This document shows, piece after piece, positions 19,945-56,999 of a stretch of 64,000 nt of DNA (position 1 is the stretch's first letter; every line of letters begins with the position of its first letter). Under the pieces are notes generated by a model, which saw nothing but the letters and a program-made list of their open reading frames with translations, was not told the origin of the DNA and made no database searches. Origin of the DNA: Caenorhabditis elegans (Eukaryota > Nematoda > Chromadorea > Rhabditida > Rhabditidae); assembly GCF_000002985.6 (NCBI RefSeq), contig NC_003279.8:11656001-11720000 (forward strand). Direction: 5' to 3'. Made by a program: the position numbers and the translations under genes.

Positions 19945-20044
19945 AAACCCCCGAATCATCTGAAAATTCATCAAAATATTCAAGAAAATCATGCGATAAA
20001 CATCGGCGACGGGGGAATATATTCCAAAAAGAAAATTTGCAAAA

Positions 20045-23000
20045 ATGTCAAATATCAGTTGGTACCGTCATTGTTCGGTTCGGCTTCAACTCGTCACACT
20101 TGCACTTTTCCTTTTATTAGGCTCCGCCTCTTTAGGCTCCGCCCACATTGATGAAGAGTTCGAAGATGACGTCACGACGACAATATCATCGATTGCGTCA
20201 CCGATGAGGCGGACGTACACAAATGAGTGGGCGGTGCGGATAGCGGGTGGGAAGGTTGAAGAAGCGAACCGACTGGCGAACAAATACGGGTACACGAATT
20301 TGGGTCCGGTTAGTTTTATTTTTGAATATTTCAAAAAAATTTCCATAATTTTGATTTTAAATCGTGGAAAAATATTAATTTTGAGCAAAATTGGGTCTCG
20401 CCTGCAAAGCTACAGTAACCGACCCACGGATTTTCAAAACAGTTATTGTTATAAATTTTTAACAAATTAAAAGAAACATAAAAACATTTTAGATCGTCAA
20501 AAAATAATTATTTTAAGCAAAGTTAGAAAATTTTCAAAAAAAAATCAAGGTCCCGCCACGAAAACTAGAGTACTCAAAAACTTTTGCTGTTTTAGAAAAG
20601 TTTATGTTAACAGTATTGAATATTATTAAATTTCAAAAATTTCGCTTTTCAGATTGTCAAAAAATATTGATTTTGAGGGAAGTTAGAAGATTTTGAAAAT
20701 TTTGAAATAAATCCAAACAAAATTTTTTTTCGAAATTTTATATTTTTACGGAAAATCTATATATTTTTAAAATTCAAGAAAAATTATTTTCCAGATAATT
20801 CCGGGTGACGAGTACTATTTATTCCGTGACGATCGAAAAAAGAGTCGATCGTCGCGAAAAACGCGAAGCTTATCAGCAAATCAGCTTCAACACGAGGAAG
20901 ATGTCATGTGGATGGAACAGCAAGTGGCGAAGCGGAGAGTGAAAAGAGGATATCGAAGGATTCGACGACATACTGATGATAATGATATTTTTGAAGAGGA
21001 TGATGATGGTACTCAAATTAGCAAGTCGAGAAATAGAAAACATCCGGATCCGAACGATCCGTTGTGGACTGATATGTGGTATTTGGTAGGTTATTGAATT
21101 ATTGAGCAAAAAATTAGAAATTCAATGGTTTTTAAATTATTCCAAAAAATTGATTTTCCGCCGAGTTATGAGCATTTATAGTTGGTGGCCGAACTTTGAT
21201 ATTCTAGGCCACTTAAAATTAAATAAGTGAAAAAGATGCAGAATTTTCAGATCACTTATAAAAATTTTGAATCATCGAAAAATATTGATTTTCCGCCGAG
21301 TTATGAGCACTTAAAGTTGGTGGCCTAACTTTGGGTTTCTAGGTCACCAAAAATTAAATAAGTCAAAAAATACAAAACTTTCAGATCAATTCTATGCATT
21401 TTGAATCATCGAAAAATATTGATTTTCCGCCGAGTTATGGGAATTTGAATTTGGTGGCCGAACTTTGATTTTCTAGGCCATCAAAAGTTAGATAAACAAA
21501 AAAGATGCAGAACTTTCCGATCAGTTTTGTACATTTTGAATCATCGGAAAATATTAATTTTTAGCCGAGTTACGAGGTTATAAAGTTGGTGGCCTAGGAA
21601 TCCAAAGTTCGGCCATCAACTTCAAATGCCCATAACTCGACGAAAAATCAATATTTTTCAATGATTCAAAATGTACAGAATTTACCTTAAAATTCTGCAT
21701 CTTTTTCGCATATCTAACTTCTCATGGCCTAGAAATTCAAAGTTCGGCCACCAACTTTAAATGCCCATAACTCGGCGGTGATTGAATATTTTTCAATTTT
21801 TCAAAAACCATTTTTAAATTAACTCTCTAAACTTTTCAGAATCGAGGTGAACATCATTCTGACTCAACAACCCGTATGGATCACAATGTAAAAGAAGCCT
21901 GGGACCTCGGGTACACAGGAAAAGGAGTCGTCGTCACGATTCTTGACGACGGTTTGGAAAGAACTCACCCAGATATTTCTCCGAATTACGATGAACGTGC
22001 TTCATATGACGTCAACGATCGAGATAATGACCCGATGCCAAGATACGAATTTTCGGATGAAAATCGACATGGAACTCGGTGTGCTGGAGAAGTTGCGGCG
22101 ATTTTTAATAATAGTTTATGTATTGTTGGAATAGCTTACAATGCAAATATCGGTGGAATCAGAATGCTCGATGGTGACGTCACAGATGCCGTCGAAGCCG
22201 CTTCCGTTGGGCATAATGCAGATTACATTGATATTTATAGGTATGGGCATTATTTCAGAATTGAGCCAAAATTTACAATTTCATCAGCTTCAATCAAAAA
22301 TATTGATTTTGAGCCAAGTTATGGACCTTGGAAGTTGGTGGCCTAACTTTGGATTTCTAGGCCACCAAAAATTAAATAAGTCAAAAAGATGCAGAATTCC
22401 AAAGCGGAGCGAACAGTTTTTAAATTATTCAAAAATATTCAGTATTAATCGAGTTATGGGCATTTGAAATTGGTGTCCTAACTTTGAATTTCTAGGCCAC
22501 CAACTTTAAAAGCTCATAACTTTGTTCAAATTCAATATTTTTCGAAATCTTCAACGGGTTAGAGTTAGACCTGGATTACGCATCTTCCCAGTTTAATTGA
22601 TTGCTGATGGCCTAGAAAACCAAAGTTCGGCCAACCAAAGTTCGGCCACCTGCATATTTTTATTCTTTTCAATTTGTTCTGGCCTAGAAAATCAAAAATA
22701 ATCCAAAGTCAGGCCACCAACTTCAAACGCCTATAACTCAAAATTAATGTTTTGAAAGATTTAAAAACTATTGTAATCGTCAGTTCTTTCTCTTTCTGTT
22801 GGTTATTTTTTCGAAAAACAAAAAAAACTCTTCCAGCGCATCCTGGGGACCGGATGACGATGGCCGAACCGTCGACGGCCCCGCAAAACTCACAAGAAGT
22901 GCCTTCGAAAAAGGAATCACCATGGGTCGAAAAGGAAAAGGCTCAATTTTTGTATGGGCATCAGGAAATGGAGGAAAAGACGCGGATTCGTGTAATTGTG

Positions 23001-24632
23001 ATGGGTACACCAACTCCATATACACGTTATCCATATCAAGTGCCACTGAAAATGGAAATATCCCATGGTACTCTGAAGCTTGCAGTAGTACCCTTGCGAC
23101 TACCTACTCTAGTGGAGCAACTGGCGAAAAGATGATCCTAACCACAGATCTACACCACGCGTGCACAAATATGCACACGGGGACCAGTGCAAGTGCTCCG
23201 TTGGCTGCTGGAATTGTTGCTCTTGCTCTAGAAGCCAACCCGAATCTCACGTGGCGAGACCTTCAACATATTGTGATACGAACTGCAAAGCCTATCAATT
23301 TAAGAGCAGGAGATTGGACTACAAATGGGGTTGGGAGAAATGTGTCCCATAGTTTTGGTTATGGGTTGATGGATGCTGGAGCCATGGTGAAGCTGGCAAA
23401 GATCTGGAAGAAGGTTGATGAGCAGCATCGGTGCAGGCAGTTTTATCCGTCGAGATATAAGTGAGTAGTTATCACCCAAATTTATGAAAAATTCCAGAAG
23501 TTTCTCGAATTTTGCAAAAGTTTTCAAAAGTTTCTAAACATTTCTAAAACTTTCCTGCTGTTTTCAGAATTTTTAAGAATTTTCCGTTTTCAGGAGCTAT
23601 TAAAATTTTTTTAGACTTTCTAGAAGTTTGTCAAACATTTAAAAATGTTTCCTAATACTCGAGAAAATTTTAAAAATTTACTGAAAATCCCTGAGATCTT
23701 CAAAAATTTTTGACAAGTTTCTAGACGTTTCTCAAATCTTCCAGAAGTTTATAGAAGTCTACAGAAATTTCCAAAAATTTCTCGATTTTTCCAGAAGTTT
23801 CTAGAAGTTTCAGAAGTTCACACAATTTTCCAGAAATTTCCAGGGACTTCTACGCGTTTTCAGAAGTTTCCGAAAATTCTAGAAATTGAGAAAATGTTTA
23901 GAAATTCCAAAAAACTCCAAGTTTTTAGAAATATCCCCAACGGAAACCGCCTTCAACTCCAACTTTACTCCGACGGATGTTATGGTGGAGCCGATGAGAA
24001 TAAGGTGTCTTATGTGGAGCACGTGCAGGCAATCGTCACATTGAAAGCTCCAAAACGTGGAGATTTGCAAATCTACTTGACTTCTCCGTCAGGTAATGAT
24101 TTTGAAAATAAATTTAGGATGTAAAACTGACTTTTTTTAAACCTTCATAACTTTTTTTGACGAAAAGCTAGAACATTGGCTCAAAAAGCGAAAATGCTCA
24201 GCTGCAAATTTCAAATTTAAAAAAATTTAAAACGTTCAGGCACAAAATCCACGTTGCTCACAAAAAGAGCACGCGACACATCACGAAGTGGCTTCACAGA
24301 TTGGGCTTTCATGACGACCCATAACTGGGGGGAGCAGGCCGCCGGGCTGTGGATTCTGGAAATCGATAATGATGGATGGGATGGTGAGTATTGATTTCTG
24401 AAAATTCATTGATTTTTAGGAGTGATTATCGATTTTTGCAGACGCCGAGCTTGTAAAATGGGAACTCGTGCTCTACGGAACTGATCGGGAAACCGGCGAC
24501 TTTGGAGGCCAACATGCTTCACCGTTAGCCGTCAGAAGTGTCCAGATGGAAGCCACGTCATCCGGCACCCAATATTCAATTTTCCACGTCATCACTCTTG
24601 TCATATTAACATTTTCCCAGATTTTATATTAA
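20045..24632 (+). CDS. kpc-1: KPC-1, furin-type proprotein convertase
   Basis: Secretory-pathway serine protease that cuts proproteins after dibasic sites. Seven exons: 20045-20308, 20795-21085, 21840-22240, 22837-23460, 23929-24092, 24240-24383 and 24442-24632; 2079 bases, 692 residues, every junction in frame with GT/AG. Signal peptide about residues 1-33. The prodomain has Arg/Lys-rich cleavage candidates RRVKR (135-139) and RIRR (143-146), or KSRNRK (165-170). The peptidase domain shows D221 (LDDG), H262 (RHGTRC), oxyanion N363 (ASGNGG) and S436 (HTGTSASAP). The P domain spans roughly 460-600. The last 20 residues are hydrophobic, so a membrane or lipid anchor is possible. In worms KPC-1 acts in dendrite branching and peptide processing (family knowledge). 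Introns 2-4 are repeat-filled. Confidence 0.96.
21170..21790. repeat. Tandem GGCCGAACTTT repeat in kpc-1 intron 2
   Basis: Four to six units of about 120 bases: CCGCCGAGTTATG, AAGTTGGTGGCC, TTTCTAGGCCA, then a spacer with ATGCAGAA. The first units run one way and the last two (from about 21590) run the other way, so the intron RNA can fold into a large hairpin. A similar inverted arrangement lies in intron 3 (22310-22740). Confidence 0.85.
23465..23925. repeat. TTTCTAGAAGTTT repeats in kpc-1 intron 4
   Basis: Degenerate units such as CCAGAAGTTTCTAGAAG fill this intron. They belong to the family seen at 17600-18330 upstream of the gene. Confidence 0.8.
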
Positions 24633-37250: not shown

Positions 37251-38660
37251 GAACAAAAACAACCCGATCAGATGCGATTTTTGACCCATCGCTAATTGGG
37301 CAATTTTTCTGCGGAACCGGTTTCAATTCTGTGGGGTAAATCTTTGCCTCTTTTTAATCTAAATAACAATTTAATTTTGGCAACACTTTTCTTTTTTTTG
37401 GATTAATTTTCATGTAAAATTTACAATTTAGGATTTAATTTTAATATTATTTTTTAAGAAAAAAATTGCAATGTTTTTGTATTTTTTCAGTCCGAAATTT
37501 GCAGAAAAAAATTCATTTTGAAAGTTAAAAAATCCTAACAAATCAGGAGAAAACAAATTAAAAACACTCGGAAGTTGAAAAACTAAAGAAAATAAATTCC
37601 ACAAAAAACTGGTCGAAAATGAGAAACATTTGTTTTGTTGTGGCTAAAAGAGCGTGAAACAAAGAGAGAGGGAGAGGACGCAGAGATAAAAAGGCACCTA
37701 GAGAGTGTTGGGGTGGTGAGAGACGCAGAGATGAAGAGGGAAAGGGAGGAGACTAGACACAAACATATGAGGAACACACGTTGCAGGGGTGTGTTCTGGT
37801 GTACTAAACCAAACGGGAAATTATTTTTTCAAGGTTTTTAATTAAAAGTAGACAAATGATATCTGCGCATTTCTGAGCATTTACCTTACTTGAGCCAGCA
37901 GAAATTTCAGAAAACAAATTTTTTTCCGATGCAAAATTTAACACTGAACATTTTGCTAGTTGAAAGTTTTTTGATATCTTTAGCCGTTTTTGAGATAATT
38001 TGGTTCAAAGTTTGAGGTGGAAGAGAGTGTGGGAGAGAGGAGACGCAGAGGGTTAGACACACTGCGTCTCCCCTCCCTCCACGCTATCTCGCGCTAAACT
38101 TTAAAACATTGTATCTCTGATACCGCTGAAGATATTTAAATTCTTTCAACTGAGGAAATACTTTAAAACTTATGAGCTTCACATTTTCAAAAGCAAAATA
38201 AAATAACACTTTGATAAAATAGTAGGATTTAGGGAAAATGCGGCAGACACTACTTGTTAGTGAGCAAATATTGGCGAGCGCTCATTTTTTGATATGTTTT
38301 TTCTTGTTTTACTGATGCTTGTTTAGGCCCTGAGCAAGAAAATTTTGCTCTAAAAATGTTAAAAAATGACGCCAGTGGAAGTAGAACAATTTCGAAACAG
38401 GAAAACTAATTTGAAATTCTTTTCATACCTGAAACATTTAAAAACATGCTTTTGTTTTTTGGCTTAATTTAAATTTCAAATGAGTCTAAAGTACGTAAAG
38501 TGAAGACTGTCTAGTTTTGGCAAACGAAAAATAATTTTGCAAGGCTGAAAATAGGGTTTGTAATCCTTTAAAAAACTATTGTTAAAAACTTTTATTTTTA
38601 CAAAATATTTAAAAAAAAATCATAATTGAAAACCCGTGAATAAAATGTATGTCATAAAAA
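37251..38660. other. Intergenic, no gene recognised
   Basis: AT-rich, with GAGA-rich patches carrying GAGACGCAGAG-type motifs (about 37675, 37720, 38042). The region 37900-38200 is an imperfect inverted repeat: an AAATTTTGCTAGTTGAAAG arm, a GAGACGCAGAGGG...CTGCGTCTCCCC centre and the reverse arm with TTCAACTGAGGAAATA. It relates to the repeat at 16500-16800 and looks like a small foldback element. Confidence 0.5.
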
Positions 38661-39485
38661 TTATAAATTGAAAAATCCCAAAATTGTCTGCTTCAGCTTG
38701 GTTATTTCAGATATTTTCAGTTCAAATCCGTCTTGTTTTGAACTTGCTAAGAAGCTCAGCGGAGCATTCAATGGGGATTCCGGTAGAACACACCAGCAAC
38801 GATGTTGGAAGCATTTTGGGATTTCTTGGATCTGAAAATTTGCTTTTTTTTAGACATTTTTTTGCACATTTTTTGCACATTTTTCCACATTTTTTGCACT
38901 TTTTTTGGACATTTTTTGCACATTTTTTGCACACTTTTGCACATATTTTGCACATTTTTGCACATTTCTTGCACATTTTTTGCAAATTTATGCACATTTT
39001 TTGCACATTTTTTGCATTTCGCCCCAAAAATATTCAAAATTCCGAGAACAATAATTTTTAAAATAATTTTTGAACACTAACAGTAGATATTCAACATTTA
39101 AGGTTTTTAAAATTTCCTACCAAACAGTTTTTTTCTTATTTGAAAATATGAATGTCTTTCTGTAATTTTGTAGTTTTTTTTTTTGAATTTCGCGCATATT
39201 TTTGATTGAAAAATTAAATAAATTAAGAATAAAAATCAATGAAAATATTTAAAGTTCCGCAGAGACTTTTAAAATTTTCTGAAAGAATTTAAAGAACTTT
39301 TTGTGAAAATTTGCAAATTTTTAAAAATAAATGCTCACCTTTCCAATTTTATTGCACCAATCCTTGCACAAAATCTCCGTCTTACATTTTGGCCGATCTC
39401 CACGCTTCAGCGGACCAATTATAGCTCCAGAATATTCGAAAATAACTAGAAATATCAGAAAAAATAGATAAATGTGTCTAGACAT
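38661..39485 (-). CDS. Secreted Cys-rich peptide, defensin-like (CS-alpha-beta pattern)
   Basis: A two-exon gene on the minus strand: 39485-39339 (49 codons, ending in GTGAGC) and 38831-38661 (56 codons plus TAA, preceded by TTTTCAG); 105 residues. A hydrophobic signal peptide covers about residues 1-21. Six cysteines at about 34, 40, 44, 56, 61 and 63 follow the order C...CxxxC...C...CxC (CKDWC, then CFQHRCWC), the arrangement of the CS-alpha-beta fold of defensins. About 42 residues follow the last cysteine, an unusual tail. The intron is filled by a GCACATTTTTT repeat. The sequence shows no target or activity; antimicrobial or signalling roles are both open. The pattern could still be chance, but signal peptide, splice sites and frame all agree. 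Confidence 0.7.
38855..39020. repeat. TTTTTTGCACA tandem repeat in the peptide-gene intron
   Basis: About 14 units of 9-13 bases (GCACATTTTT with variable T runs). Open frames on both strands across it, reading Cys/Lys/Asn-rich or Phe/His-rich, are artefacts. Confidence 0.92.
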
Positions 39486-39680: not shown

Positions 39681-41943
39681 TCAAGCTGTCGGAGCAGCGT
39701 TCGGAGCATTTTTCTGCACAAAACTATTAGTCCGCATACTGGCTTCAATCGACGACATGTGTGACTCCGGAGCCAGAAATTTCAGTCTAAAAATTAAGTT
39801 TTTTTTGCAAAAACTTTTCAATTCTAAAAAAAATAAATAAATAACCTGAAAGTTTTAGCCAATTTTTCTCTGAAAATTCGCCGATAAACTGAGTTGCTCA
39901 GAATCATTGTGGAGCATTGGCACATTGAATGGGAAGCCATTAGAAAGGTCATGTTGGTGGCAAGTTCTGAAACTCAGAGCACATTTGGAGCATTTTATGA
40001 GCGCCGCCTACCTTGAAGATGAGTAGCTTCACCAATCACAATGAACAACATAATATTTTTGGGGATCACAATGAGCCCACCGGGCAGAGCCATTTGCATG
40101 CTCAAGCTGAAAAGAGCCGCCCGGTGCATGTTATAGGTCTGGGAGGACATGTGCTGGCGGAGACGCTGTAGAATTATCATTGTGTGAACACCAAGGTACA
40201 CACAGTACCTGAAACATTTTTAGAGGTAGGTATGTAGGTAGGCACGAGACAGGCGCGAGACAGGTAAGCAATTAGTAGCAGGTGGCAAGGCATGTAGGCA
40301 TATTATAGGCAGGTAGGCAAGCAAAAACAGTTTTGTAGGCGAGCATCAATGCACGTAGGGATGTTACATCGAGGTTTGTAGGCAAGCATAACTGAAAGGC
40401 ACGAAGGCAGGCTGGCAGACAAACGGATAATTTGTGGAATGGCATATAGGAAGTTACATAGGCAGGTTTACAAGCGGCAGTCAAATGGGTAGGCAAAACA
40501 GGTTCGGAGGTATACAGAAACTGCAGGCAAGTAGGTAGGCACGAGGCAGGCGCATAATCAAGTAGGCAGGAAAGCTTGAGACAATCAGCTATGTAGGTAT
40601 GCTGGTAGGCATACATATGATAGGTACGTGAGCAGGGGAAAGCTTCTGGGACGGCATTAGGCAGACTTTAAAAGGAATATTGGCGAGCTGGCAAAAGGCG
40701 GATAGGCAGGCCTGTAGGCAAGCAGGTAAACAATGTCTACCTATCATGACAGCCTCAAAACTCACCAAACAATGAAAAACACCCAAATCAAAGCTCCGAT
40801 CCCTGTCACAAACATCCATGGATTCTGGTGTGGATCGTAGGCTTCAAACCCGTCAAAAGCCATCCAAAACAGACATTGTGGGTAGTTCTGAAAATTTGAA
40901 GCTCAGCAGAAAATTAATGTTCCACTGTTGCCTACTTTCTTCACAAAATCATATTTTTGCTGGTAGGTCAGACTCGAGTTCCACATGGAAATTGCGGTGA
41001 AAAATGGGAAAATGTGAGTTATGAATAACAGAAGCTTGTTGAAATGCATCTTGCTCGACTGGTTCTGCAATGATTTTCAGATAAAACTCGGGCTTATAGT
41101 CTTGAAAACTTGATTAATCTGGACAGCTGCATTGTGGCGATATACGAAGCATGTGAGCCCGGCGGAGAGCTCGAAACAAAAAATCCCAACCCAAATGGAC
41201 ATACTCATATGGGGACTTATGAATTGTCCAAAAAATTCTCCAGTATTGTATCCACCGACCATTGGAAAGAAATAGAAGGCTGGGCAAACCCAGGACATGT
41301 AGATTTCTGTTACGAAGGATGCGGTCTGGAATTTTAAATTTTTTGAAGTCGGGTCCCACCACGAAAACTACCGTACCCTTTTTTTTATTTTCCAACCTAT
41401 ACAACATGGATGTTAATTTCAAGCTTTTTGCGTTAAAGTTTAATTTAAAAAAAAACTGGATGCCATAATTTTAGTTACTGTACAAAAATAGGGTCTTACT
41501 AGGAAAGCAACTGTTCCTGTTTGCGGTGAGACCCGTAAATTATTAAACTCGAAAGGTTTTTGACATGGTGTCAAATCAAAGCACATGATTCTAAATTGTT
41601 TAAAATTTTAACATCCAGAGTGCTCAAATACTGAAGCAACGAAATTTTTCAACACACGGGTAATTTTTCAACAGCACGAAAAAAACGATTACTACAGTAA
41701 TCCAAAAATCAAATTTGTAATAATTGTTCACATTTTAAAGGTCATATTGTAGTAAATCCAATAAAATATTATTTTCCCTCAAACCTGCATATAACAAAGG
41801 CAATACTTGTACCCAAACATTCCCGGCGACTGAAACCAAACCATATAAAACCCGATAGCGTTTACTGGAAGCGAAATTGCTCCAATAATGTGCAAAGTTA
41901 GCGTATAATAGGCTGGAATTGTAGGGGGACACGGTGCGGACAT
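39681..41943 (-). CDS. Serpentine chemoreceptor, Str superfamily, probably SRI class (copy 1)
   Basis: Seven-transmembrane receptor of the nematode chemosensory type. Exons, read downward: 41943-41785, 41325-41110, 41064-40936, 40887-40766, 40208-40012, 39966-39846 and 39786-39681; 1050 bases, 349 residues with no stops. Early motif PCPPTIPAYY, then LHIIGAISLP, FFPMVGGYNTG in exon 2 and RLRQHMSSQT in the third loop region; the Ser/Thr-rich tail ends NAAPTA. Exon 2 ends CAA|GTTTTC, a weak donor but placed exactly as in the partner gene. Intron 4 is filled with GTAGGCA-type repeats. The gene is the inverted paralogue of 43169-45178; their starts face apart, 1.2 kb from each other. Class assignment (SRI versus SRH) is from general resemblance. 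Confidence 0.9.
40209..40765. repeat. GTAGGCA repeats in receptor copy 1 intron 4
   Basis: Loose repeats of GTAGGCA, AGGCAGG and GTAGGTAGGC on + (TGCCTACC on the coding strand). The same coding-strand sense appears in introns 2 and 4 of receptor copy 2. Confidence 0.85.
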
Positions 41944-43168
41944 TTTCGAGTTCTAGGAGCTCAAAAAGTAGGCAAATTGATTTTATTGTCTCTGGGTTTG
42001 AATTCAAGACTCTACAGCTGGAACCAACTGCCTGATGGTGAGCCACGTTAAAAAATAATTTGAAAGATTAACATTTAGCAGGTGAAACTTCTGGGGGATT
42101 TCAGCAGAAGTGTGATCTTTGAGTATTGGCCGGAAGATTTGTTGTCAACTTTTATCAAAAACATGGTGCATCGACATGGAGTTCTCCAATTTTTTCGGAT
42201 TTATTCAATTTTTAAAAACTTTATTCAAAAAAACTGTTCTTTTCAGATAATCCCAACAAACTTAGCATCCTCAAGAAAACTTAGCATGCTCGGAATGTGC
42301 TCCGACAAAAATCTAAATATTTTCTCAATGAAGCTAATTAATTTCTAAAAGTTTTTATACATACTATTACAGCAAACAAGAACATATTAAAAAAAAAGAT
42401 TTCCCATGTAGGCTGGCACGCCTTGGAAGCCTGCCGTGCCTGCGTTCTGCCTATCGACTGTAACCTGGAATATTTCTTATTTTACATTAAACATGTTTAG
42501 GGTCAGGCATGCTTGTAGGCACAAGGCAGGCGTGGTAGGTTGCCTTCAGACACGGTAAGCTTAGGCATTTGGAGAATGTGCTCGCAGAGCCAAAAACCAA
42601 TTATTTTGACAATGTGGTTGTCAAAATAATAAGGTTGTCGGCCCAAGACGGAAAACTGTCTGAAATCAAATAAAATCGAGACCTGGCGAAACAATGTGCT
42701 CGCGGAGTCAAAAAGTTAAAGCTATTGTAACCAGGTTTTTTTTCGAAGTCAAATCAAAACTAGGCAAACTCAAAGGTGCTCAACCTTTCTAGGTATCAAA
42801 CAATCAGATTTGAAGCCACGGTGCACGTGTCCACGGAGCCCATTACCAATTTTTTTTTCAGATTTAGCTTTTGGACTCAAATTAAAGCTAACAACTCGCT
42901 AAACTCATAAATATTTCTTCAAACTTCAAACGTTTCCTCGTGTGATATCATTTAAAAATCTAAAAATAAAGTGCATAAACCTACGTTTTCAGGTGAAAAA
43001 ACATTGATCAAAAAAGCAAGAACCACGGTCGAAATTAGGTATAAAAGAGCAGTTTTACAATAATTTCTCTGGAAAACTTCACCTGTTTAGTGGATACAGA
43101 AAACCTCCCATATTTTCCTGATTTTCCATAACTAGATTCAGTGAAAATTCCAATTTTTCAGCTTCAAA
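41944..43168. other. Intergenic between divergent receptors
   Basis: About 1.2 kb that should hold both promoters. It includes a 13-base-arm hairpin (ATTATTTTGACAA, 5-base loop, reverse arm) at 42600-42630, GCTCGCGGAGCC-type words near 42578 and 42697, and CCTGCCGTGCCTGCG near 42431. No exon seen. Confidence 0.5.
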
Positions 43169-45178
43169 ATGGTTGCACCATGTCCTGAAATTATACCATT
43201 TTACTATACAACTACGCTACACGTGATAGCCACAATTTCGGTGCCAATAAATTTAATCGGGCTTTATATGGTTTGGTTTCAGTCTCCTGGCATGCAAGGC
43301 TATAAGTATTGTCTTTGCTATATGCAGGTAAGAGTTAAACTGCATTTTTGACATTTTCGTGGTGGGATCAATTTTTTTAAATTATTTTGAACCGCCTAGT
43401 TTCTGATAGACAGAGCTTTCATTATAGGTTTTGTGGTGGGACCATACTCTTTTTAACTCTTTTTTTAAAGCTACAACAATTTCAAATTCTTCATTTCAGT
43501 ACATTAGTACTACATTTCAGACCGTATCCTTCCTGACAGAAATCCACATGTCCTGGATATGTCCCGGCTATTATTTCTTCCCAATGGTCGGCGGATACAA
43601 TACCGGAGAGTTTTTCGGTCAATTTATCAGCTCCCACCTGAGCATGTCACTTTGGGTTGGCGTTTTTTGTTTTGAGTTGGCGGCTGGTCTGACATGCTTT
43701 GTTTATCGACATAATGCAGCTGCACAGATTAATCAGGTTTGGAGACTATTTTAGTAGCGCCTACTTAGTGCCTGTATGCCTACGTGCCTACCTCATGCTA
43801 TTCTCCCAACCCAGTTTCCTCATGCCTGCCTAATTGCCTACTGCCTGCCTACCTCTACCTATTGCATATGTGCCTATTCCCCGCTTATACAAATGCCCAC
43901 TCGCCTTGCCTACTTGCCTACCTACCTACCCCATTCATATCTGCCTACTCGCCTACCTGATGCATCTGCCTACCTTGCACCTATTTTACTACAAGCCTAA
44001 TTTGTGATTGTTTGCCCTCCGGCCTACCTTATGCCAATCAACATCGTTTCTATCTGCCGCCTCCGCCCTACCAAGTCTAAACGCCTATTCTATGCCTGTT
44101 TACATAATCGCCTAACTCACGCCTATCTACATACCTTTTTATCTTTTTCAGACCTACTCCAGCAAGCTCTACCTCGACAAATTCCTGCTATTCTTAACCC
44201 ATCTGTTTCCATTTTTCACGGGAATTTCTATGTGGTACTCGAAATTGACGTACCAGCAAAAATTCGAATATGTGAGACAGGTACTGAATATCCGAATAAG
44301 CTTTTTAGTGGACAGACCTGAAAATTTCAGAACTTTCCGCAGTGTTTAAGCTGGCTGGCTTTTGATGGATTCGAGGTTTATGATTATCATTTGAACAAGA
44401 TGATGGCTGTAACTGGAGTTGGAGCATTCGCATACGTTTTTATAATTGCATGGTAAGATACCTACATACCTACACGTGCCTACCTCGTACCTATTTGCCT
44501 ACCTCATTTTTGAGTGCCTACCGGCCTGTCTACTCCTAAAGTTTTTCTCTCCGTGAACACTTTTCATACTACCAGTAATCCAAATCCAAGCCTATTAGTT
44601 ATGAGGTAGGTAAGTAGGCATGATGTAGGCCGGTAGGCACAAAACAGGCACCTAGGTAGAAAATTTCCAGGTACTGTTTCTACCTTGGTGTCCACACAAT
44701 GATTATTCTTCAACGACTCCGTCAACACATGTCATCTCAAACCTTCCAAATGCACCGGGCGGCTCTTATCAGTTTAGCCATGCAAATGGTCATCCCCGGC
44801 GTATTCATCATAGTCCCATTGGACATTTGTATGACTGTAGTGATCACCGAGACCGTCGCCTTGCAAGGTACCTACCTCAAGCTGCCGGTTACCGATTTCC
44901 AAGAACTTACAGAATTCGCTACGGATACCATGTTCATGGTGGGATCCCATTCCATGTGTCAGTGCAGTGTTATGCTGTTGAGCAATTCCACGTATCGGCG
45001 GGTGTTAAAGGAGAAGATTTTTCGAGTATTGAGGTCTGCCTGCCTACATGCCTACCTACCAAAAAATTATTTTTTCAGACTTGAAATAATTGCAAGTAGT
45101 CAATTGGTCAGTTCAGTGGACCCAAGCATGCGAACAAATAGCTTTGTCAGAGCACAAGCGGCTACTCCGGTCGCCTAG
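43169..45178 (+). CDS. Serpentine chemoreceptor, Str superfamily, probably SRI class (copy 2)
   Basis: Partner of the gene at 39681-41943. Exons: 43169-43327, 43521-43736, 44152-44280, 44331-44452, 44671-44867, 44913-45033 and 45079-45178; 1044 bases, 347 residues, no stops. Exons 1-6 have exactly the same lengths as in copy 1; only the last differs, by six bases. For exon 6 I chose the acceptor CTTACAG (44912) over the nearer AAG because it reproduces copy 1's length. The start MVAPCPEIIPFYY and the FFPMVGGYNTG block match copy 1 almost exactly. Hydrophobic segments account for seven membrane passes. Introns 2 (43737-44151) and 4 are filled with GCCTACC repeats. Expected role: chemosensory GPCR in sensory neurons, from family knowledge. 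Confidence 0.92.
43750..44145. repeat. GCCTACC repeats in receptor copy 2 intron 2
   Basis: About 400 bases of TGCCTACC, ACTTGCCTACC and CTATGCC units, with a smaller patch in intron 4 (44461-44530, plus the reverse sense at 44600-44660). Pyrimidine-rich on the coding strand. Frames across it are artefacts. Confidence 0.88.
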
Positions 45179-45864: not shown

Positions 45865-47593
45865 ATGCGGCTAATTTTACTATTTCTAGCAGTGTTTCTT
45901 TGTCGTGTGGTAAGGGGTTTTCAATTTCATAATTTTAGAAATTTTTAGAAATTAAATTTTAAAACTTTTTTGAAAATTTGTGCCTTATAGGGCGTTAAGA
46001 GCACAAGTAATTATTGAAAACTAATACATTTTTCATTTCCGATTGTCGTAAACATTATCAAATGTTGATGGCTAATCCAAGTCAAATCCAGTTGCTCACC
46101 AAGCTGGGAGCCCTACTCCATACGATGCCAACTTCAAATCTAACCTGAAATTCCAGACTGCTCACCAATGCGACGCAGAAACTGAGTGCTCGGACGATGA
46201 AACTTGCTGTAAGCTCGGAGACAACACGTGGGGATGCTGCCCGATGCCGAATGCCGTGTGCTGTGACGATAGGTCCCATTGCTGTCCAACAGGGACCACT
46301 TGTGATCCACAAGGAGCTAGATGCATTGGAGCTGACGAGAAGCATGTTCCAATGAAAAAGAAGAAGCCCGCCAGAAAAACTGTGGAGAGGAATCAGTTCA
46401 ATGAAGTCGTCTGCCCGGACAAGGCTAGCAAGTGCCCAGATGGTTCGACGTGCTGTCTGTTGGAGCAGGGAAGCTACGGATGTTGCCCGGTGCCGAATGC
46501 GGTGTGCTGCGCAGATATGTTGCACTGCTGTCCGAATGGATTTACGTGTCACGGGCAGTTTTGCTCGCAGAATGTGAGTTAAGACTAAGCCAATGTATTA
46601 AAAGGTTTTCTCTAGTGACTGGGTGTAGTTAGAGCAGAATTTTGGTACATAGACGTTCTTAGGACCGTCTATAGATTACCCTACATGAGATAAAAAGCAC
46701 CGACAGTCTCGGAAATTGATACCCGCCACGTGGTGTCAAAGTGTCTCATTTCGGTTTGATCTACGTTGATCTAGATTGATCTAGATCTACAAAAAATGCG
46801 GGAGAAGAGACGCAGAGTTTTCAATTGATTTTGCATGGTTAATGGCATTGGCATTTTTCGGGCAAAAACTTCCCGAATTTTTTGTAGATCAAACCGTAAT
46901 GGGACAACCTAACACTACGTGACCCGCACCATCGTTATAATCCATGATTCTTTGCAATCCCATCTCAAGGTCGTAGCCCGGGTCTCCCATCCTTGGCACG
47001 TACTGTACACCCATTCTTCCAGTTCGCCATGATCCCACACCTGCGGAAGTTCGCCTCCACCTCCATCCATCGCAAGCCAGCAGTGGAGTTCCTTTCCGAA
47101 GAAGAGGAGGATGATGATGATGAGGAATCCACGTCATCAGAGGATCCAGAAAGCGATGTGGACCCGATTGCCTGTGGAGTTGGAAAGACGTGTCCAGCAA
47201 AAACCACGTGCTGTAATGTCCGAGGAAAGAATGGGGAGCCGAAGACGATGTGTTGTCCATTGAGCAACGTGAGTTACCTTCGAGGCAGGCAGCTTCACCT
47301 ACAAGCTAGATCTAGGTAGTTTTATACTCTTATGAACCTTGTATGCGCTCAGGTAGGTTTCGGTCCCGATGTGACTTTTAATTCCTTGAATTTTATGGGA
47401 CTAACAGAAAGAAGCAGAGATCCTAGTCTGTATTAACATAACTACAGTTCAATTTCAGGCCATCTGCTGTGAGAACACTTGCTGCCCAGCCGGCTATCAC
47501 TGTGTTGATGGTGGAAAGTGCGAGAAGCACGCTAAAACTATGAGAACCCGATTCTGGAATGTGAAGGATGATGAGGATGAGGATCAGATTTAA
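45865..47593 (+). CDS. pgrn-1: Progranulin PGRN-1
   Basis: Secreted, lysosome-directed glycoprotein precursor cut into granulin peptides. Exons: 45865-45909, 46082-46573, 47023-47268 and 47459-47593; 918 bases, 305 residues. A signal peptide covers about residues 1-15. Three granulin domains are visible by paired cysteines: HQCDAETEC to about ARC, VVCPDKASKC to GQFC (both with the WGCCP- or YGCCP-type and HCCP motifs), and IACGVGKTC to GGKC, which is split by intron 3 and looser in spacing. An acidic Glu/Asp-rich linker (EEEEDDDDEE) precedes the third domain and an acidic tail ends the protein. The exon 2 acceptor is uncertain: I use CCAAG|TCAAATCC, which keeps frame with the strong GTAAGG donor. 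AATCCAG ten bases later would break frame. Confidence 0.95.
46733..46915. mobile_element. Small inverted-repeat element (MITE-like), copy 1
   Basis: Lies in pgrn-1 intron 2. Ends are GTGTCTCATTTCGGTTTGATC on the left and the reverse complement of the same form, GATCAAACCGTAATGGGACA, on the right; the centre has GAGACGCAGAG. A second copy in opposite orientation lies at 56818-56990. Confidence 0.8.
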
Positions 47594-47717: not shown

Positions 47718-50612
47718 TCATAATTTCGCACAAACATCCGTCCAAATGTGCCGAACTTTTTCCAATCCATGTGGTGAGATGTGTATCCCTGAGGTGAAGT
47801 ATTCAAATCCTCGCTCATCAAATAATTTGTAGGTTTTAGTAGCATTGTTATAGAATTCGAGCTTGTAATCCACAAGAGCACATCGTCCATTACACTCTTT
47901 CACTAGCTCCGCATATCTTTTTCGCGCCATTTCGTAGGTCGCCTGTTTGTACGGCTTGCCTACCTCATCACCCAAGCGTTTCTGAAATTTTTCTTGGTGA
48001 TATGAGGGTGTTAGAAATTTAGCTCATTACTCCGTACCTCAACTTCTAGAGGCTTCACTCCTTCTTTGAGCCATTTACCGATGTTCTTTGTCAAGTCCCA
48101 ATTGTGTGCTGGAATGACATTCAGGATGTAAACCATGTACTTGTATTCGACAGAAACCCAAGCAACTGAGCTTTCATAGATTTATAAATGGGGTCGTCTC
48201 GGAACTTTGTGACATTTTTCGGCATGGGATCACCGATGGAAATGTACCTGAAACCGAAGTGAAGCTTAAGTAAAGCTGACCAATTGTTTTCGACTACCTA
48301 AAAACTATGAACAGATAATCTGGCTTTTCCTTTTTAACGCGATCTTGGAAACTGTTGTAGTATTCTTTGCAGCGTTTTAGGTTTTCGGTGGGATAAATAA
48401 TTTCACATTCTTAAAAATTAAAGTGATTTCAAATTTTAAGTGACTTGACTCACTTGGGTAGGATCCTTGTATGATAGTTTTGGCTTTGTAACCACATTCT
48501 TTATGAAACAATGTGCCGTGATTTGCTGTCCAACTATTACCAATGATTATCAGCTTGTATTTTGAAGTCGCATTCAAACCCTAAACTTTGAGCCTAATGT
48601 GGTAGTTTTGAATCAATCCCAATACCGTGTGATTGCACCATCCAAATGGACCTTTCTGTTCATATTTACAATTTTTTACATACAGATTCCCAGTGTCTCC
48701 TCTATTCCAGTTGTTGTTCTGTCGGATTACATCGTCAATTGTAATATTGTCAGTCGACGTCAAGTTAGCTTTCTTTTGAATTGCGAATTGATCACGTTCT
48801 ACCAGAACTATATTCAGAGCGAATAGTAATACAACGAGTCGTGCAAGTTTTGTAGATGTTAGTTTGAGGTACCATTTCTCAACAGTTTCAAAAACAAGAA
48901 CAGCGAGGAAAATTGAGCAGAGCAATGCAGCAACAAGCACTGAAAGATAGATTGAACGTTTTACTATTGTTTTATCTAATCCTAAGCGTTTGTTACACGA
49001 CAAGGAGTTTCGTTATTGCCATTTAGACTTACATAGCTTGTTGCCTTCGTAAGTGAGCTTCCAGTAGGAATAAATAGGCCAATGAATTAGATAAAGTGAA
49101 TATGAGATATCTCCAATGTAGGTTAACACTCTATTTGACAAAACTGCATTATCTTCAGATATAAGCATTAAACATCCAGTCCCAATAGTCACAAGTGGTC
49201 TGCAAGTGTTTATATACATAGGACAGAATATTAACGAAATTAAACTTTCTTATTGCCAGAAATATTAAATTATACTGACGGCTGCTTAAGCCATGTACAA
49301 AACTATTAGAAAAAAGAGGTTGTACCTTATAACTGACGCATCTAATGAGGTTGGAAGTGAAGTTATGAGGACTAGGCCGGTTAATAGCAAATATGCGATG
49401 ATCGTTGTAGGATCACAACGCTCAGAATGCGTGTTGGATTTACTGCTAACATCTTTGTTGTCGTCATCAGTGAGCAAGCTCTCAAAAACTTCTGTCTCTT
49501 TTGTAAGCTCGACGTATTTCACACCTCTTTGCTGCTTAGAATAATCAAGTAGATACACATTATTCCTGAAAATTTCTACCTATCAAAAATTTTGGAAAAA
49601 AAACACCACTAACCAATTGAAAACTGCCAAATCCTCGCAAAAACGCTATTGAATGCTACCGATTGAGGGGATGAGAAGAAAAAAGAATATGACACGATTC
49701 CTGGAATTCAGCTTTGTTATAGAAGGTATAAGATTATATATAATATATAAGACTATAAATATATAAGACTAGTCTTGGCAAAAAAAAAAAAATAAAAATC
49801 TTGGATTTTCGGTAGAATTTTCATAGCATTCGATAGGAATTTTTTTAAATGTAATATTATGGGTACATTTTTGGACCTGGAAATTCAATTTCAGCCGCTT
49901 TTGAGGGTGCCTATATAAATATATAAAAGTATGTATAAGTATATATAAGTATATATATACTATATATAAGGTACCTATAAAACCAACCTATAAATGCGTA
50001 GTACCCATTTTCAAATTTTGATGGCAATTTTGTGGCTAACAGGAAAATGAAAGGAATTAAAAAGTAAAATTGAATTTCAACTGACAACGACCAGGTATGA
50101 GTGAATATGTCTATTGCTTTTGTGAGCTGGAATTATAGGATGTATCAATCAAATCGGAATTATATACCATCATAAAGTAATCCTGAGCTTCCGTTTTCGG
50201 GGTATTTGACACAAAAAATAAAGCCCTCAATGCAGATTCTTGATTTGTTTCAACTATGATTTCCGGAAAAAAATGCAAAGAGACAAATCATGGAGCAACA
50301 AATGACAAGTAGGTAAAGTGGTAGAATTCTTTTGAATCTTTTGGTATAGAATATAGTTATTAAAGTACATGGTGGCTCTTTTTCAGCTCTCTTCAAAAGC
50401 ATACACATCAGAAATCCAGATAGAACGAAGAATCTTAAAATTGACTAATTAGAAGTTTGAAAAAATTGGTAGACTTACTGATCGACACCTAAATATCCAT
50501 TTGGAAATGTGTCAGGGTAAAAATGGAAACCGAGAACTGCAATTATAGCCAAACCACGTATACCTTGTAGATCAAATCTTTTTTGTGATGGTTTTATTGG
50601 CGAGTAACCCAT
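47718..50612 (-). pseudogene. Acyltransferase-3/SGNH pseudogene (left copy)
   Basis: Same eleven-exon plan as the intact gene 51879-56197: ATG at 50612 directly after TTTTCAG; exon starts near 50433, 50126, 49700, 49565, 49199, 48939, 48580, 48409, 48247 and 47981. Three single-base shifts break it against its paralogues: an extra A in the A7 run 50267-50273 (exon 2), one base missing at the start of exon 5 (about 49558-49565), and one base missing in exon 10 (about 48144-48150). Elsewhere the GNSWTANHG motif and the HISPHG tail survive. It is convergent with pgrn-1, 125 bases between stops. Intron 3 holds a TATA-rich microsatellite (49728-49975). It may still be transcribed. Confidence 0.9.
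49728..49975. repeat. TATATAAG microsatellite
   Basis: Imperfect TATATAAG and AATATATAAGAC units in intron 3 of the left acyltransferase copy, in two patches at 49728-49775 and 49910-49975. Confidence 0.8.
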
Positions 50613-50639
50613 CTGAAATTTTCTATGTTGTTTTGAGAT

Positions 50640-51878
50640 GAAAATTGAAATTTAAGAAATTAAAAGTGAACACGGAAACTGAAACATATATTTTTGTGCC
50701 CTGAACTCACAATAAAACGAAACACAAATTGAATATACCTCCCTACATAAAAAAAAACGGAACATACATGTCTCTATAGAATCAGGTTGAGTTCCCTTTT
50801 AGAAATGGCTTCAGGAAATCATTTAAAAAAGTGATGACCGCGAGTTTGCAAGCATGTTTATTTTGAAAAATACATGATATTGCAAAATAAATAGCTGGAA
50901 GCATTATGAAATAAATATAAAATCGGAATAGGACAAATTCATTTATTCGAGACCATTTATTACACTACCCATATAAAATTTAATTTATTAAAATTCAGCT
51001 TATTGAAATTAAAATTCTAGCCTAAACTAAGAAAAACTTTTCATAAAAGTGGTCCAAGTTTACGCTATATTTGTTCATTTTTCAGTGACTGAAAATACTT
51101 TTTAAAACAAATGTAATGCTGCTTTTCAACGTTTATAGATTAAGGTTATACTATTAAAAAACCATAAAAATAATCGCAAAGAGCACCGCCCTACCAAAGA
51201 ATTCACTATTTTTCCATAGGTTCCTCTTTATAAGTGGAAAATGAGTCGTAAAAGTAAAGGAAGTGTTGTAGAAATGAACTACGTTTTAACTAATAGGCAT
51301 GGTTATGAATAAAAATAAAACGATCAGGATGACTTTACATGTTAACCAGCGTTGATAAAACAGCAGTGCAAATATTTCCAGTTGTTTTAAAACAAGAATT
51401 TTGAATTATACAATGTACTAACCATTCACCAGATTTAAATAAAAAGTAAAAATTTCATTCAGTTTCTTGAAAACCTTCACAATTGTTTCACAAATTTATA
51501 AAAATGCAATAAATGTTTCCTCTATCAATACACAAAATTTTTGTTTATACACATTTCACACCCTTTTAGAAATGCCTTCAGGTAACCATTCAAAACGGTG
51601 ATGACAACAAGTTTGCAAGCTTTTGAAAAGTATACAAAAACACGATGAAAGGATTATGAAATCAAAAAATCAAACAAAAATCCTGTGTTTTCGAGTTTGA
51701 AGTACTCTCAAGTTGAGATGTGGTTGCCATTAGCACCACTCAGATGATCTTCATGTGATTTGTTGTTCAAATCTGAATGTTCATTTTTCCAAGAAAATCA
51801 CTTCGTATATTTGAGACCATTTATTAATACTACCTATTACAAAGTTTAAATACTGAAAACTCTAATACTTCAGGATCA
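50640..51878. other. Spacer between acyltransferase copies with internal duplication
   Basis: About 1.2 kb. The stretch 50795-50990 (CCCTTTTAGAAATGGCTTCAGG ... GAGACCATTTATTA) recurs at 51564-51840 (CCCTTTTAGAAATGCCTTCAGG ... GAGACCATTTATTAA), so the downstream flank of the intact gene is partly doubled. No coding exon. Confidence 0.7.
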
Positions 51879-54800
51879 TCATAATTTCGCACAAACATCC
51901 GTCCAAATGTGCCGAACTTTTTCCAATCCATGTGGTGAGATGTGTATCCCTGAGGTGAAGTATTCAAATCCTCGCTCATCAAATAATTTGTAGGTTTTAG
52001 TAGCATTGTTATAGAATTCAAGCTTGTAATCCACCAGACCACATCGCCCATTGCACTCTTTCACTAGCTCCGCATATCTTTTCCGGGCTAATTCATAGGT
52101 TGCCTGTTTGAACGGCATGCCTGCCACATGACCTAAGCGTTTCTGAAAATTTTAATCTTGTACTATAAGTTCGGAGCTCAAGTTTCTTAAATTGCTCACC
52201 TCAACTTCAATAGGCGTTATCCCTTGTTTAAGCCATGGCATAATCTCTCTTGTCAATGGGTTATTGTGTGATGGCAAGGCATTCAGGATGTAAATCATGC
52301 GCTTTGTACCTGACAGAAATTCAAGAAGCTGAGATTTCATTGATTGATAGATTGGGTCATCATTAAACTCTGTGACATTCTTTGGCATCGGATCACCAAC
52401 CGTTAAATACCTGAAAATGTGGGTTTTCCAGGAGCCTAATATGTATAATTTATTACCGTATAACTATGAATAAGTAATCAGGTTTCTCTTTTTTTACGCG
52501 ATCTCGGAAACTTTTGTAATAATTTATGCATTCTTCTCGATTGAAAGTGGTATGAATCATTTCGCACTCTGAAAATTTGGAAAATTGGATTTTCAAACAA
52601 ATTGAAGCTGCAGCTCACCCGAAAAAGACCCCTGTATAATACTATTTGCTTTATAACCACATTCTTGATGAAACAAGGTACCGTGATTTGCTGTCCAACT
52701 ATTTCCAATGATCATTAACTTGTACTTTGAAGTTGCATTTAGACCCTGAACATGTTAAGACTTATTCTCCCGTTCTGTTCGGAATTTGGCTCAAGCTTCT
52801 TGCCCAAGTTTGGCCCAAAAAATATTACATTGGATTATTGGCCAAATTTGGGCAAAAGTTTGGCAAAAGTTGAATGAAACTTGGCTTAAACTTTGGTGCA
52901 GCCACGCTTTGCCAAAGTCTTGCCCAACTTTTTCCCAAGTTTACCAATGCCAACTCCGTTGAACTTTGTTCTTACATGGTTCCATCCCATCATTATGCTT
53001 TGTTTCATCCCAACCATTCGCTCCCGCCATTTTAGCTAGATAGACAAATGCCAATCCCCCGCTTTGAAATAGTATAAAAAGCGGGGAACAACCGACCCAA
53101 TCACACAATTTCCTTTTCATTTTCTTTTCATTATTTTTACCATATTTTTGCTCTTGTATCTTTTATGTTCTTTATTTATCTTTATATGAAATGGGTTAAT
53201 TACCCAAGTTTGAGGTCGAAACCCCCCCCCCCCCCCAGGCTAAAAATTTTCATAATTTTAAGCCAAACTTGGGTCAGAAGCTAGAGTCAAAAGCCGAGTG
53301 TATACCTGATGACTGCACCATGCAAGCGGGCCTTGTGTTTCATATTTGCAGTACGGGACGTTCAAGTTTTGAATATCATGAATGTTCCAGTCATTATTCA
53401 GTCGAATTGCATCATCAATAGTCATATCGTCGCTGACATTATGTATCAGCAAATGCCTTGTAACTGCATTTGAGGTGCGGTTTTGTCGGGTGTTGGTGTC
53501 ATTTCGGTTAATTTCCATTTGATTTGCAAATTCATCACGATTGACTAGAACCATATTGAGTGAGAATAGTAAAATGACGAGCAATGCAAGTTTTGAAGAA
53601 GTTAGTTTGAGGTACCATTTTTCGAATATTTCAAATACAAAAACCGCCAGAAGAATTGAATTGAGCAATGCCACAACTAGCACTGAAAGTTAGCACATTT
53701 TTCAAGTAACGTCATCTCAACTAACATGACTTATTGTCTTCATTAGTAAGCTTCCAGTAGGCATAAATAGGCCAATGAACTAGATAAAGTGAATATGAGA
53801 TATCACCAATGTAGGTTAACACTCTATTAGATAGAACTGCGTTGCCTTCAGATATAAGCATTAAACACCCAGTCCCAATAGTCAATAATGGTCTGAAAAA
53901 GGAGCAGTGGGATAGCAAAATTTAATGTGAAATATAAAAAAGCCTAATGATAGTTTAGTTGACCAGAATCATTAGCACCTACAGTTCCGGCCAAAAATAT
54001 ATGCCTTTTTGGTTTCTCAGGGATTATTTTAAAAAATGCAAACGAGTATAACTTTGAAACTAGACAGTTTTGCAATAAAAGCTCAACTAACAAATTGTTG
54101 CTCTTGATTTTTCATGCACGATGAAGTATTTTGCAATGCTTCACAAAAATAATGACAATATATACAGCGCCCGACATCTCGCCACACGTTTCCGTGAAAA
54201 AAATTTTAATAAAAAAAACCAAAAACGCATATACTTTTGGAAAACTGTTAATTCATTACAAATTATAATTTGAACGCCTGCCAAACGCGCTCCAGCACTT
54301 ATACTTTACCTTGCAATTGAAACATTCAATGGAATTGAAAGTGAAACTATGAGCACAAGACTGCTCATTAACAAATAGGCAATGCCTCTTGTAAAACCAG
54401 GATAGCTTGAAGATGGTTGCTTTTTCATATTTTTGCAGTCTTCATCAATGAGCAAGCTCTCAAATGCTTGAGTCTCTTTTCTGTTTTGCAGTTTTGAATA
54501 TTCAAGAAGGTACACAATTATGCCTGAAAAACTGTACATACCGTATATTCTCTATTAGTAAGGCGCCTCTATTAGTTGTGCATCTAAAATCACTCATCGA
54601 AAATTAGTTTTGCACCTCTAATAGTTTTGCACCCCATTTCATTTGTTCCCTATTTTTAGGAATTTAAAATTTGCATTATAAAATCGTTTTACAAATCAGG
54701 AAAATTCTTACAGACTTGGAATAACAAGTCAAAATTGGCAAAATATGAGTACAACTTGGACAGTTTTTGCGTATCAGCCTTAAAATTCGTCCATTTTGGT

Positions 54801-56197
54801 TCACAAGGTGTTACTGAAATTGATGATATTATGCCATAACTTAATGGAAAACATGAGAAAGAAACCAGTTTGAAAATTAGTTTTGCACCCTCTATTAGTT
54901 TTGCACGCCTTCTCGGCAAAACGTCGCAACTTCATAGCAAACTCCTGCAACTTAATAAAAACATTTATTTTTAACTTTGTATAACTTTGTAAAAAGCTGT
55001 TAAGAAGTTGCGAAAACCAACGGGATGAGCGAAATTTAGCTTTACATCTGCTAAGAAATTGCAAAAGTCGTCTGAAAAGCTGCAGAAGTTTGCTTAAAAG
55101 CTAAAATGCCTAATTGTTGTTAAGTAGTTGCAAGAGTATGCTATGAAGTTAGGCCGTTTTGCCGAGTTACTAATAAAGGATATACGGCAACTTAGCATTC
55201 GTTCATATTTTTTTAGAGCAGTTTTTTTTTTTGCTTTTTTCTGGTTTCCAAGCAGAGTTGTCTTTTTTTTTGTTTTTTTTTTGGAGGAACTAGATTCATT
55301 GTTCTTTTTTTTTAAGTCCAAATTTTAAACAAAAAATGTTACTCTTTGCTCGAAATTTTTTGTGGCGGACAGCTCTGTTTCCAAGGGTGACTAGAAACTT
55401 GTCTAGCCTCTTAACAACTTGCCTATTGAAAACTGCCATATCCTTGCAAAAACGCTATTGAAAGCTACCGATTGAGGTGATGAGAAGAAAAATGAAAATG
55501 AGACAATTCCTGAAATTCTGATATATTTTAAGAGTTAGAAAAATTGCACACCAACCTATAAATGCGTAGTACTTAATTTCAAATTTCGATGGAAGTTTGG
55601 CTGCTAGCAGGAAAATGAAGGGAATTAGGAAGTAGAATTGAACCTCAACAGACAATGACCAGGTATGTGTGAAGATGTCCATTGCTTTTGTTAGCTGGAA
55701 ACACCGAATATAGTACATATCAATAAAATGTAAACCCTCTTACATACTTTCATAAAATAGTTTTGCGCTTCAGTTTTTTGAGTGTTTGACACAAAAAATA
55801 AAGCCCTCAATGCAGACTTTTGATTTGTTTCAACTACGATTTCCGGGAAAAATGCATAGAGACAAATCATGGAGCAACAAATGACAAGTAGGTAAAGTGG
55901 TAGAATTCTTCTGAATCTTTTGGTATAGAATATTGTTATTAAAGTACATGGTGGCTCTTTTTTAGCTCTCTTCAAAAGCATACACATAAGAAATCCAGAT
56001 AGAACAAAGAATCTGAAAGTAATAACTATTGTTAGAGAAATTTTTTAAAAAATTGGTACTTACTGATCAACTCCAAGATATCCATTTGGGAAGGTGTCAG
56101 GGTAGAAGTGGAAGCCTAGAACTGCAATTATAGCAAGACCACGGATACCTTGTAGGTCTAGTCTTTTAGGGGATAGTTTTATCGGCAAGGAACCCAT
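51879..56197 (-). CDS. Acyltransferase-3 / SGNH membrane acyltransferase (intact copy)
   Basis: OAC-type O-acyltransferase: an N-terminal multipass acyltransferase-3 domain and a C-terminal SGNH domain, expected to move acyl groups across a membrane. Exons, read downward: 56197-56064, 56012-55748, 55694-55556, 55509-55423, 54523-54310, 53892-53726, 53682-53306, 52745-52619, 52568-52457, 52410-52200 and 52142-51879; 2097 bases, 698 residues. Exon 4 ends AATAG|GCAAGT, a GC donor. H30 (GFHFYP) and the TKRFRRILPLY segment are typical of the membrane half; GDISYSLYLVHWP marks its last helix. S477 in GNSWTANHG is the SGNH serine and H678 in SGIHISPHG the histidine, but the usual aspartate three residues earlier is Ser. 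TTTCAG abuts the ATG, suggesting trans-splicing. I cannot name the family member. Confidence 0.92.
52765..53275. other. Inserted sequence in intact-copy intron 7
   Basis: The intron is about 560 bases against about 190 in the right copy. It holds repeats of CCCAAGTTTGGC/CCAAACTTGGG type words, a CCCGCTTTGAAATAGTATAAAAAGCGGG near-palindrome (about 53055-53085) and a C15 run at 53222-53236. The outer 60 bases match the right copy; the middle is extra. Confidence 0.65.
53222..53236. repeat. Poly-C tract, C15
   Basis: Fifteen C in intron 7 of the intact acyltransferase; since the gene is on the minus strand, the pre-mRNA carries G15. Confidence 0.93.
53981..54248. mobile_element. Tc1/mariner-type MITE in intron 5
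   Basis: A 268-base element with inverted ends of about 33 bases: ACAGTTCCGGCCAAAAATAT on the left, and CATATACTTTTGGAAAACTGT on the right. TA flanks both sides (CCTACAGTT; ACTGTTAATT), as expected for Tc1/mariner insertion. No frame inside. Confidence 0.72.
54541..55187. mobile_element. Foldback element in intron 4 of the intact acyltransferase
   Basis: About 647 bases with inverted ends CCGTATATTCTCTATTAGT and ACTAATAAAGGATATACGG. Longer inner arms also pair (about 54911-54965 with 55110-55165; GGCAAAACG...CAACTTCATAGC). CTCTATTAGTTTTGCAC words recur near the left end (54568, 54615 and 54890). Non-autonomous; no transposase frame. Confidence 0.78.
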
Positions 56198-56289
56198 CTG
56201 AAACTTAAGTTTTTATAATAAAAAAGCTATTGATCAAATTCGAGAATAAAACAAACAATCGGAATTAACAGAAAATTTGAAAAAACGGG

Positions 56290-56770
56290 CCCCTGGTGTT
56301 TTGCAGTGCGTTCAGTGGTATTTTATATAAGTTAAACTAACAGTACACTTGGTGACTCTACAAGGATTTATTATAGACAACTAGTAACACTAATAGACAA
56401 GTAACGTAAGAACATAAAGTAAGAACTGATTCGGGAAGTCCCACCAAGGTTGGCCATGTGGTCCACGTGTCCAAGGTTGAGTTGTTCGTATTGGCGTGGC
56501 AAGGTCATGGCGTGAATGTTGTTGTTGTCATCCTCTGCTGCTCCTTGTGTGCATCCATCCGGAGTTCACGGCGTAAATGGTTCACGTGGTTGTTCCTTAT
56601 ATGTATCGACTGTACGGTTGTCCCTTGAGCAATGGTGATAGATGTGCTCGGTGTTGCTAGCGTCCATTGTAGAGTGCATAATTATGCAATAATTATGAAA
56701 GTCGTGATCGTTGGAGGCTCTTCTCCATCGTATTCGCGACACCTGGGCCCAAATTATGGCTGTTACAAGG
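56290..56770. other. GC-richer island, possible LTR remnant
   Basis: A 480-base stretch distinct in composition from both flanks. On the minus strand it starts TGTAACAGCC, has AATAAATCC near its far end (about 56370) and ends near AAACACCA, which fits a solo LTR. No target duplication is visible and no frames match reverse transcriptase or protease. Confidence 0.3.
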
Positions 56771-56817
56771 GGCAAAAAAAGTCGCCACCCCCATTAAAAT
56801 TGATATTAAACCCATAG

Positions 56818-56990: not shown

Positions 56991-56999
56991 AGAGGTGCC

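Follow-up and report, generated by a model that had tools for sequence, protein, structure and literature searches.

A two-exon gene model for a secreted peptide with a CS-alpha-beta-type cysteine framework in Caenorhabditis elegans

The minus strand of the window (the whole stretch of 64,000 nucleotides of C. elegans DNA that was analysed) carries a two-exon gene model, 39485-39339 joined to 38831-38661, whose 105-residue product combines a signal peptide with six cysteines in the order C..CxxxC..C..CxC. The two-exon gene is very probably real. On balance, it is probably a single-copy gene for a small secreted peptide of the cysteine-stabilised alpha-beta (CS-alpha-beta) type, likely an extracellular defence effector, with an origin in the ABF lineage as the favoured one. 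The genetics of C. elegans is complete, and a six-cysteine CS-alpha-beta peptide whose core is split by a phase-0 intron would offer in this animal a directly testable case for the origin of nematode defence peptides and for changes in their disulphide number; the gene would also extend the list of candidate immune effectors by an unstudied one. Should it already be annotated, the novelty would lie in the framework only.

Exons, intron, and flanking sequence

Exon 1 (39339-39485, minus strand) comprises 49 codons, with an in-frame TAA directly 5' of the ATG at 39485, and encodes residues 1-49, among them a signal peptide at about residues 1-20, KR at residues 27-28, and C34, C40, and C44 (C-x5-C-x3-C). 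Its 3' end reads AAG/GTGAGC at 39339. Exon 2 (38661-38831, minus strand) encodes residues 50-105, with C56, C61, and C63 (C-x4-C-x-C) and a 42-residue C-terminal tail, and ends after these 56 residues in a TAA stop codon at 38663-38661. The intron between them (38832-39338, minus strand) is 507 nt long, runs GTGAGC...ATTTTCAG, is of phase 0, and cuts the peptide core five residues past the third cysteine. The initial annotation, which had proposed this secreted two-exon peptide and judged its reading frame, splice sites, and phase to fit, was borne out here: coordinates, frame, and phase are exact, both splice sites are strong, and joining the two segments yields the signal peptide and all six cysteines. 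An AATAAA on the minus strand at 38591-38596, ~65 nt 3' of the stop codon, is a likely if weakly supported poly(A) signal; AATAAA is to be expected often in DNA this rich in AT.

Within the intron lies an 11-base tandem repeat, TTTTTTGCACA, in ~16 copies (38846-39016). The repeat is common to many places in the genome, with at least 87 further matches falling within window positions 38822-39019, a few of which reach up to ~10 bases into exon 2.

The gene had also been described as sitting beside a chemoreceptor, and a Sri chemoreceptor gene on the same strand (39681-42067, minus strand, outer limit approximate) indeed ends 195 nt 5' of the ATG, at 39681; two stretches of it were tested and matched Pfam Sri with E 7.5e-19 and 1.5e-21. 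As regards the question of an operon, the 195-nt interval between the two genes contains neither TTTCAG nor AATAAA. A related Sri gene at 43428-45178 is inverted with respect to 39681-42067 and shows 69-82% identity to it in four blastn pieces, and tblastn of the window found no second copy of the peptide at this gene.

Further features were observed in the window. The long ORFs at 829-1852, 3561-4489, and 62029-62802 are repetitive and open in several frames (MPTCLHAY-, PPAATARRY-, and CRNCRLPELP-like), and resemble minisatellites, not genes. A subtilisin-family gene at ~20000-24500, with a Peptidase_S8 exon at 22748-23464 and presumably of the proprotein convertase type, lies ~14 kb from the KR-bearing peptide, which is probably a coincidence. 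Granulin repeats are found at 46076-47319. A run of ORFs occupies the minus strand from 47718 to 61454, and the three stretches of it that were tested gave weak matches to Acyl_transf_3, SGNH, and PHTF1-2_N, each below the Pfam cut-off.

Cysteine framework and searches for relatives

The annotated signal peptide has a hydrophobic core at residues 5-16 with a mean hydropathy of 3.25, in keeping with a secretion signal. The six cysteines, at residues 34, 40, 44, 56, 61, and 63, stand in the annotated order with loop lengths of 5-3-11-4-1, and the long C-terminal tail noted initially extends for 42 residues after the last of them. Shuffling residues 29-105 (n=500,000) retained the cysteine order in 0.35% of cases when spacing was left free, and in 0.025% with plausible spacing. 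Residues 29-64 have a net charge of +4. Single-sequence AlphaFold2 models, which do not probe the core, were obtained for the half-peptides. Exon 1 alone was modelled with helices at residues 3-23 and 37-47 (mean pLDDT 71), the second of which spans CxxxC at a pLDDT of ~60-70, while the model of exon 2 alone, with a mean pLDDT of 61, has a helix spanning residues 86-103. The amphipathicity of this tail helix is not unusual, as 38% of its own shuffles score as high.

The available passages of PMC6435467 give the pattern of invertebrate CS-alpha-beta defensins as C-x4-15-C-x3-C-x8-11-C-x4-9-C-x-C, in which H precedes the third cysteine and a G stands two positions ahead of the fourth. The loops of the new peptide fall within the range given there, whereas W precedes its third cysteine and P stands two before its fourth. 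The GXC motif (gamma-core) before the fourth of six cysteines, which the available passages of PMC5116183 describe as general but not universal, is absent from the peptide, which has PKC at residues 54-56.

A profile search of the joined peptide against defensin and CS-alpha-beta models, proposed initially as a check, gave no match over the cut-off. The sole Pfam match of the peptide was PDGLE (E 0.15, 12.3 bits versus a cut-off of 27). Run over the genome, PF16839 (ABF) gave six matches, none of them at the locus: abf-2 and both exons of abf-1 account for the three above the cut-off, and the three below it were rejected as candidates, lying elsewhere in the genome. PF01097 (arthropod defensins) matched the genome once and PF00304 (plant-type defensins) eight times, in every case elsewhere. 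PF00451 (scorpion short toxins) had no match at the locus over the genome. A PF00451 match at C4:5159139-5159189 (24 bits versus a cut-off of 25.1) falls within a different cysteine-rich ORF that begins with a signal-like segment, but is not in the frame of that ORF, and was therefore taken as a chance match.

Up to E 10, a PDB search with the peptide returned only two matches, both scorpion neurotoxins and neither significant (E 0.07 and 0.54). In the better of the two, a toxin of CS-alpha-beta fold, cysteines 34, 56, 61, and 63 are in register and the CxxxC pair is unaligned. The core alone had no PDB match up to E 10. As a positive control, joined abf-1 found the ABF-2 (E 1.3e-16) and ASABF (E 2.2e-13) structures, so the PDB search works on joined worm exons. 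One scan of exon 2 against bacterial and archaeal genomes gave 149 pattern matches and one scan of exon 1 against viral contigs gave 109, none of which was confirmed; the lack of a bacterial, archaeal, or viral relative in these scans was as expected and fits an animal gene. Four fragments of the peptide had no occurrence in the literature searched, although other papers and databases may contain them, and the same holds for six cosmid-style names that genes of this region may carry.

The defensin-type assignment made initially stands in part: cysteine order and loop lengths agree with it, while the lack of a Pfam match over the cut-off and of a significant PDB match, the replacement of H and G by W and P, and a different phase and place of the intron do not. 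The peptide is read as an orphan secreted effector of CS-alpha-beta type, possibly of the ABF lineage.

Two other accounts of a real peptide have to be weighed against this. The secreted six-cysteine peptide may adopt another disulphide fold, or have a signalling or ligand role, with a cysteine order that is convergent with CS-alpha-beta. Such an account would suit the failure to link the sequence significantly to any CS-alpha-beta family that was tested, the missing GXC, the long tail, and the chemoreceptor gene 195 nt away, but it sits poorly with the helix predicted over CxxxC and with the fact that CxxxC followed by CxC with plausible loops was seen in so few shuffles (0.025%), and I consider it rather unlikely. 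An endogenous channel-modulating peptide, acting on the worm's own channels or on those of a competitor, is very unlikely. The five-residue first loop and the C-x4-C-x-C end are reminiscent of alpha-KTx toxins, and both PDB matches up to E 10 were scorpion neurotoxins; yet these matches (E 0.07 and 0.54) fall below significance, the scorpion short-toxin profile misses the locus, and C. elegans is not known to deliver venom.

Rarity of the gene model

The chance of finding such a gene was gauged in a 264-kb sample of this genome, consisting of the window and 20 × 10 kb. Scored with rough splice matrices, which were built from those 16 of the 27 candidate introns in the sample that end in CAG, only 0.19% of 24154 GT sites reach or exceed the score of the donor site, and only 0.26% of 26597 AG sites that of the acceptor site. 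The scan for two-exon models used filters written after the locus had been seen, so its figures are post hoc and are guides rather than clean probabilities: a signal peptide together with the six-cysteine order was found at the locus alone under all three splice rules, that is in 1 of 16 models with GTRAG/TTTCAG sites, 1 of 225 with looser sites, and 1 of 5205 when every GT and every CAG was allowed. Under the same rules, no model from four first-order Markov resamplings (~1.06 Mb) carried the signature (0/5, 0/174, and 0/5660). An earlier run of the scan had given 1/13 in the sample and 0/7 in the resampling.

The two halves of the gene were also counted separately. Under the strict splice rules, one exon-1-like half and one exon-2-like half occur in the 264 kb, and they are the two exons described here, which adjoin each other 507 nt apart and match in phase. 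When any GT and any CAG are permitted, the sample contains three exon-1-like halves (in two places) and six exon-2-like halves, and by my own arithmetic ~0.009 chance pairings of such loose-rule halves would be expected.

The coding bias of both exons is weak. The in-frame hexamer score is the best of the six frames for exon 1 and for exon 2, and is matched or exceeded by 8.1% and 12.1%, respectively, of 1180 background ORFs; among 85 long ORFs, the two exons lie at the ~16th and ~13th percentile. A whole-genome search with the peptide (100,286,401 bases, 7 contigs) for a second copy found nothing but the locus itself up to E 10. That the locus is a non-gene or a decaying gene, in which open stretches beside a chemoreceptor are paired by chance, would accord with the weak coding bias, the single copy, and the satellite repeat that makes up about one third of the intron, but is highly improbable in view of two frames open from end to end, strong splice sites, a signal peptide and a complete signature, no match in ~1.06 Mb of Markov-resampled sequence, and the absence of both halves from the rest of the 264-kb sample under strict rules.

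Proposed role and comparison with known peptides

For a secreted CS-alpha-beta effector, the favoured reading, the following course can be proposed. The signal peptide would be removed after about residue 20, and a short propeptide may be cleaved at KR 27-28. The cationic domain at residues 29-64 would then fold as a cysteine-stabilised alpha-beta core with the putative disulphides C34-C56, C40-C61, and C44-C63, in which the helix would bear CxxxC and the second strand CxC; the 42-residue tail would be an appended segment, perhaps a helix. The most likely role of the peptide would be that of an extracellular defence effector, with an antimicrobial action suggested by analogy to the ABF peptides. 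According to the available passages of PMC3409374, ABF-2 acts as a defence effector in vitro. In the literature passages at hand, the C. elegans CS-alpha-beta peptides that are named are the ABFs. As to its origin, the gene would be a diverged member of the ABF lineage without one of the four disulphides.

Scorpion short potassium-channel toxins (alpha-KTx) have loop lengths similar to 5-3-11-4-1, but the resemblance does not extend to a PF00451 match at the locus or to a significant PDB match. Six-cysteine defensins have a shorter tail than the new peptide, and their profiles PF01097 and PF00304 do not match the new locus. Six-cysteine invertebrate defensins of the traditional insect kind, including the C. 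remanei cremycins, share six cysteines and compatible loop lengths with the peptide. In the arthropod and mollusc defensins covered by the available passages of PMC6435467, the mature domain lies undivided in a single exon that follows a phase-1 intron, whereas the new gene has a phase-0 intron within the domain. The nematode drosomycin-type genes (cremycins) have two exons and one phase-1 intron in the available passages of PMC9751787, in contrast to phase 0 in the new gene.

The comparison with the ABFs is limited, as far as introns are concerned, to the genes found by the PF16839 profile search of the genome, abf-1 and abf-2 only. Two genes of this genome were taken as these, the deposited ABF-2 structure supporting the second name. 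The splice of abf-1 was deduced from the DNA sequence, and is supported by a joined product that matches ABF-2 ungapped across the junction. ABF-1 and ABF-2 share secretion, the CxxxC...CxC framework, and a C-terminal tail with the new peptide, but each contains eight cysteines instead of six, and their first loop spans 15 residues, compared with 5 in the new peptide. Unlike nematode ABF, the new peptide also has no PF16839 match and no GXC. BLASTP scored it at 16.5 bits against abf-2 and returned nothing for abf-1. A MAFFT alignment that combined the peptide, ABF-1, and ABF-2 was set aside, for it did not bring all cysteines into register, and no ABF homology is therefore claimed from alignment.

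It is in gene structure that the new gene comes nearest to abf-1, and for this reason a diverged ABF-lineage gene is favoured as its origin. Both have two coding exons and a phase-0 intron just past the third cysteine, at an offset of three residues in abf-1 and five in the new gene, while in abf-2 this domain is not interrupted by an intron. The phase-0 core intron is the sole positive hint of ABF ancestry, and chance could produce such an intron: by my own rough estimate, a phase-0 intron would fall between the third and fourth cysteine in 6-8% of cases. A fuller scenario, in which a six-cysteine CS-alpha-beta peptide emerged from the ABF lineage as the fourth disulphide was lost and the first loop became shorter, reached scorpion-toxin-like loops independently, and acquired a new tail, is speculative and decidedly unlikely. 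If true, such an ABF-derived peptide would link the nematode antibacterial factors to ion-channel-type cores within one model genome.
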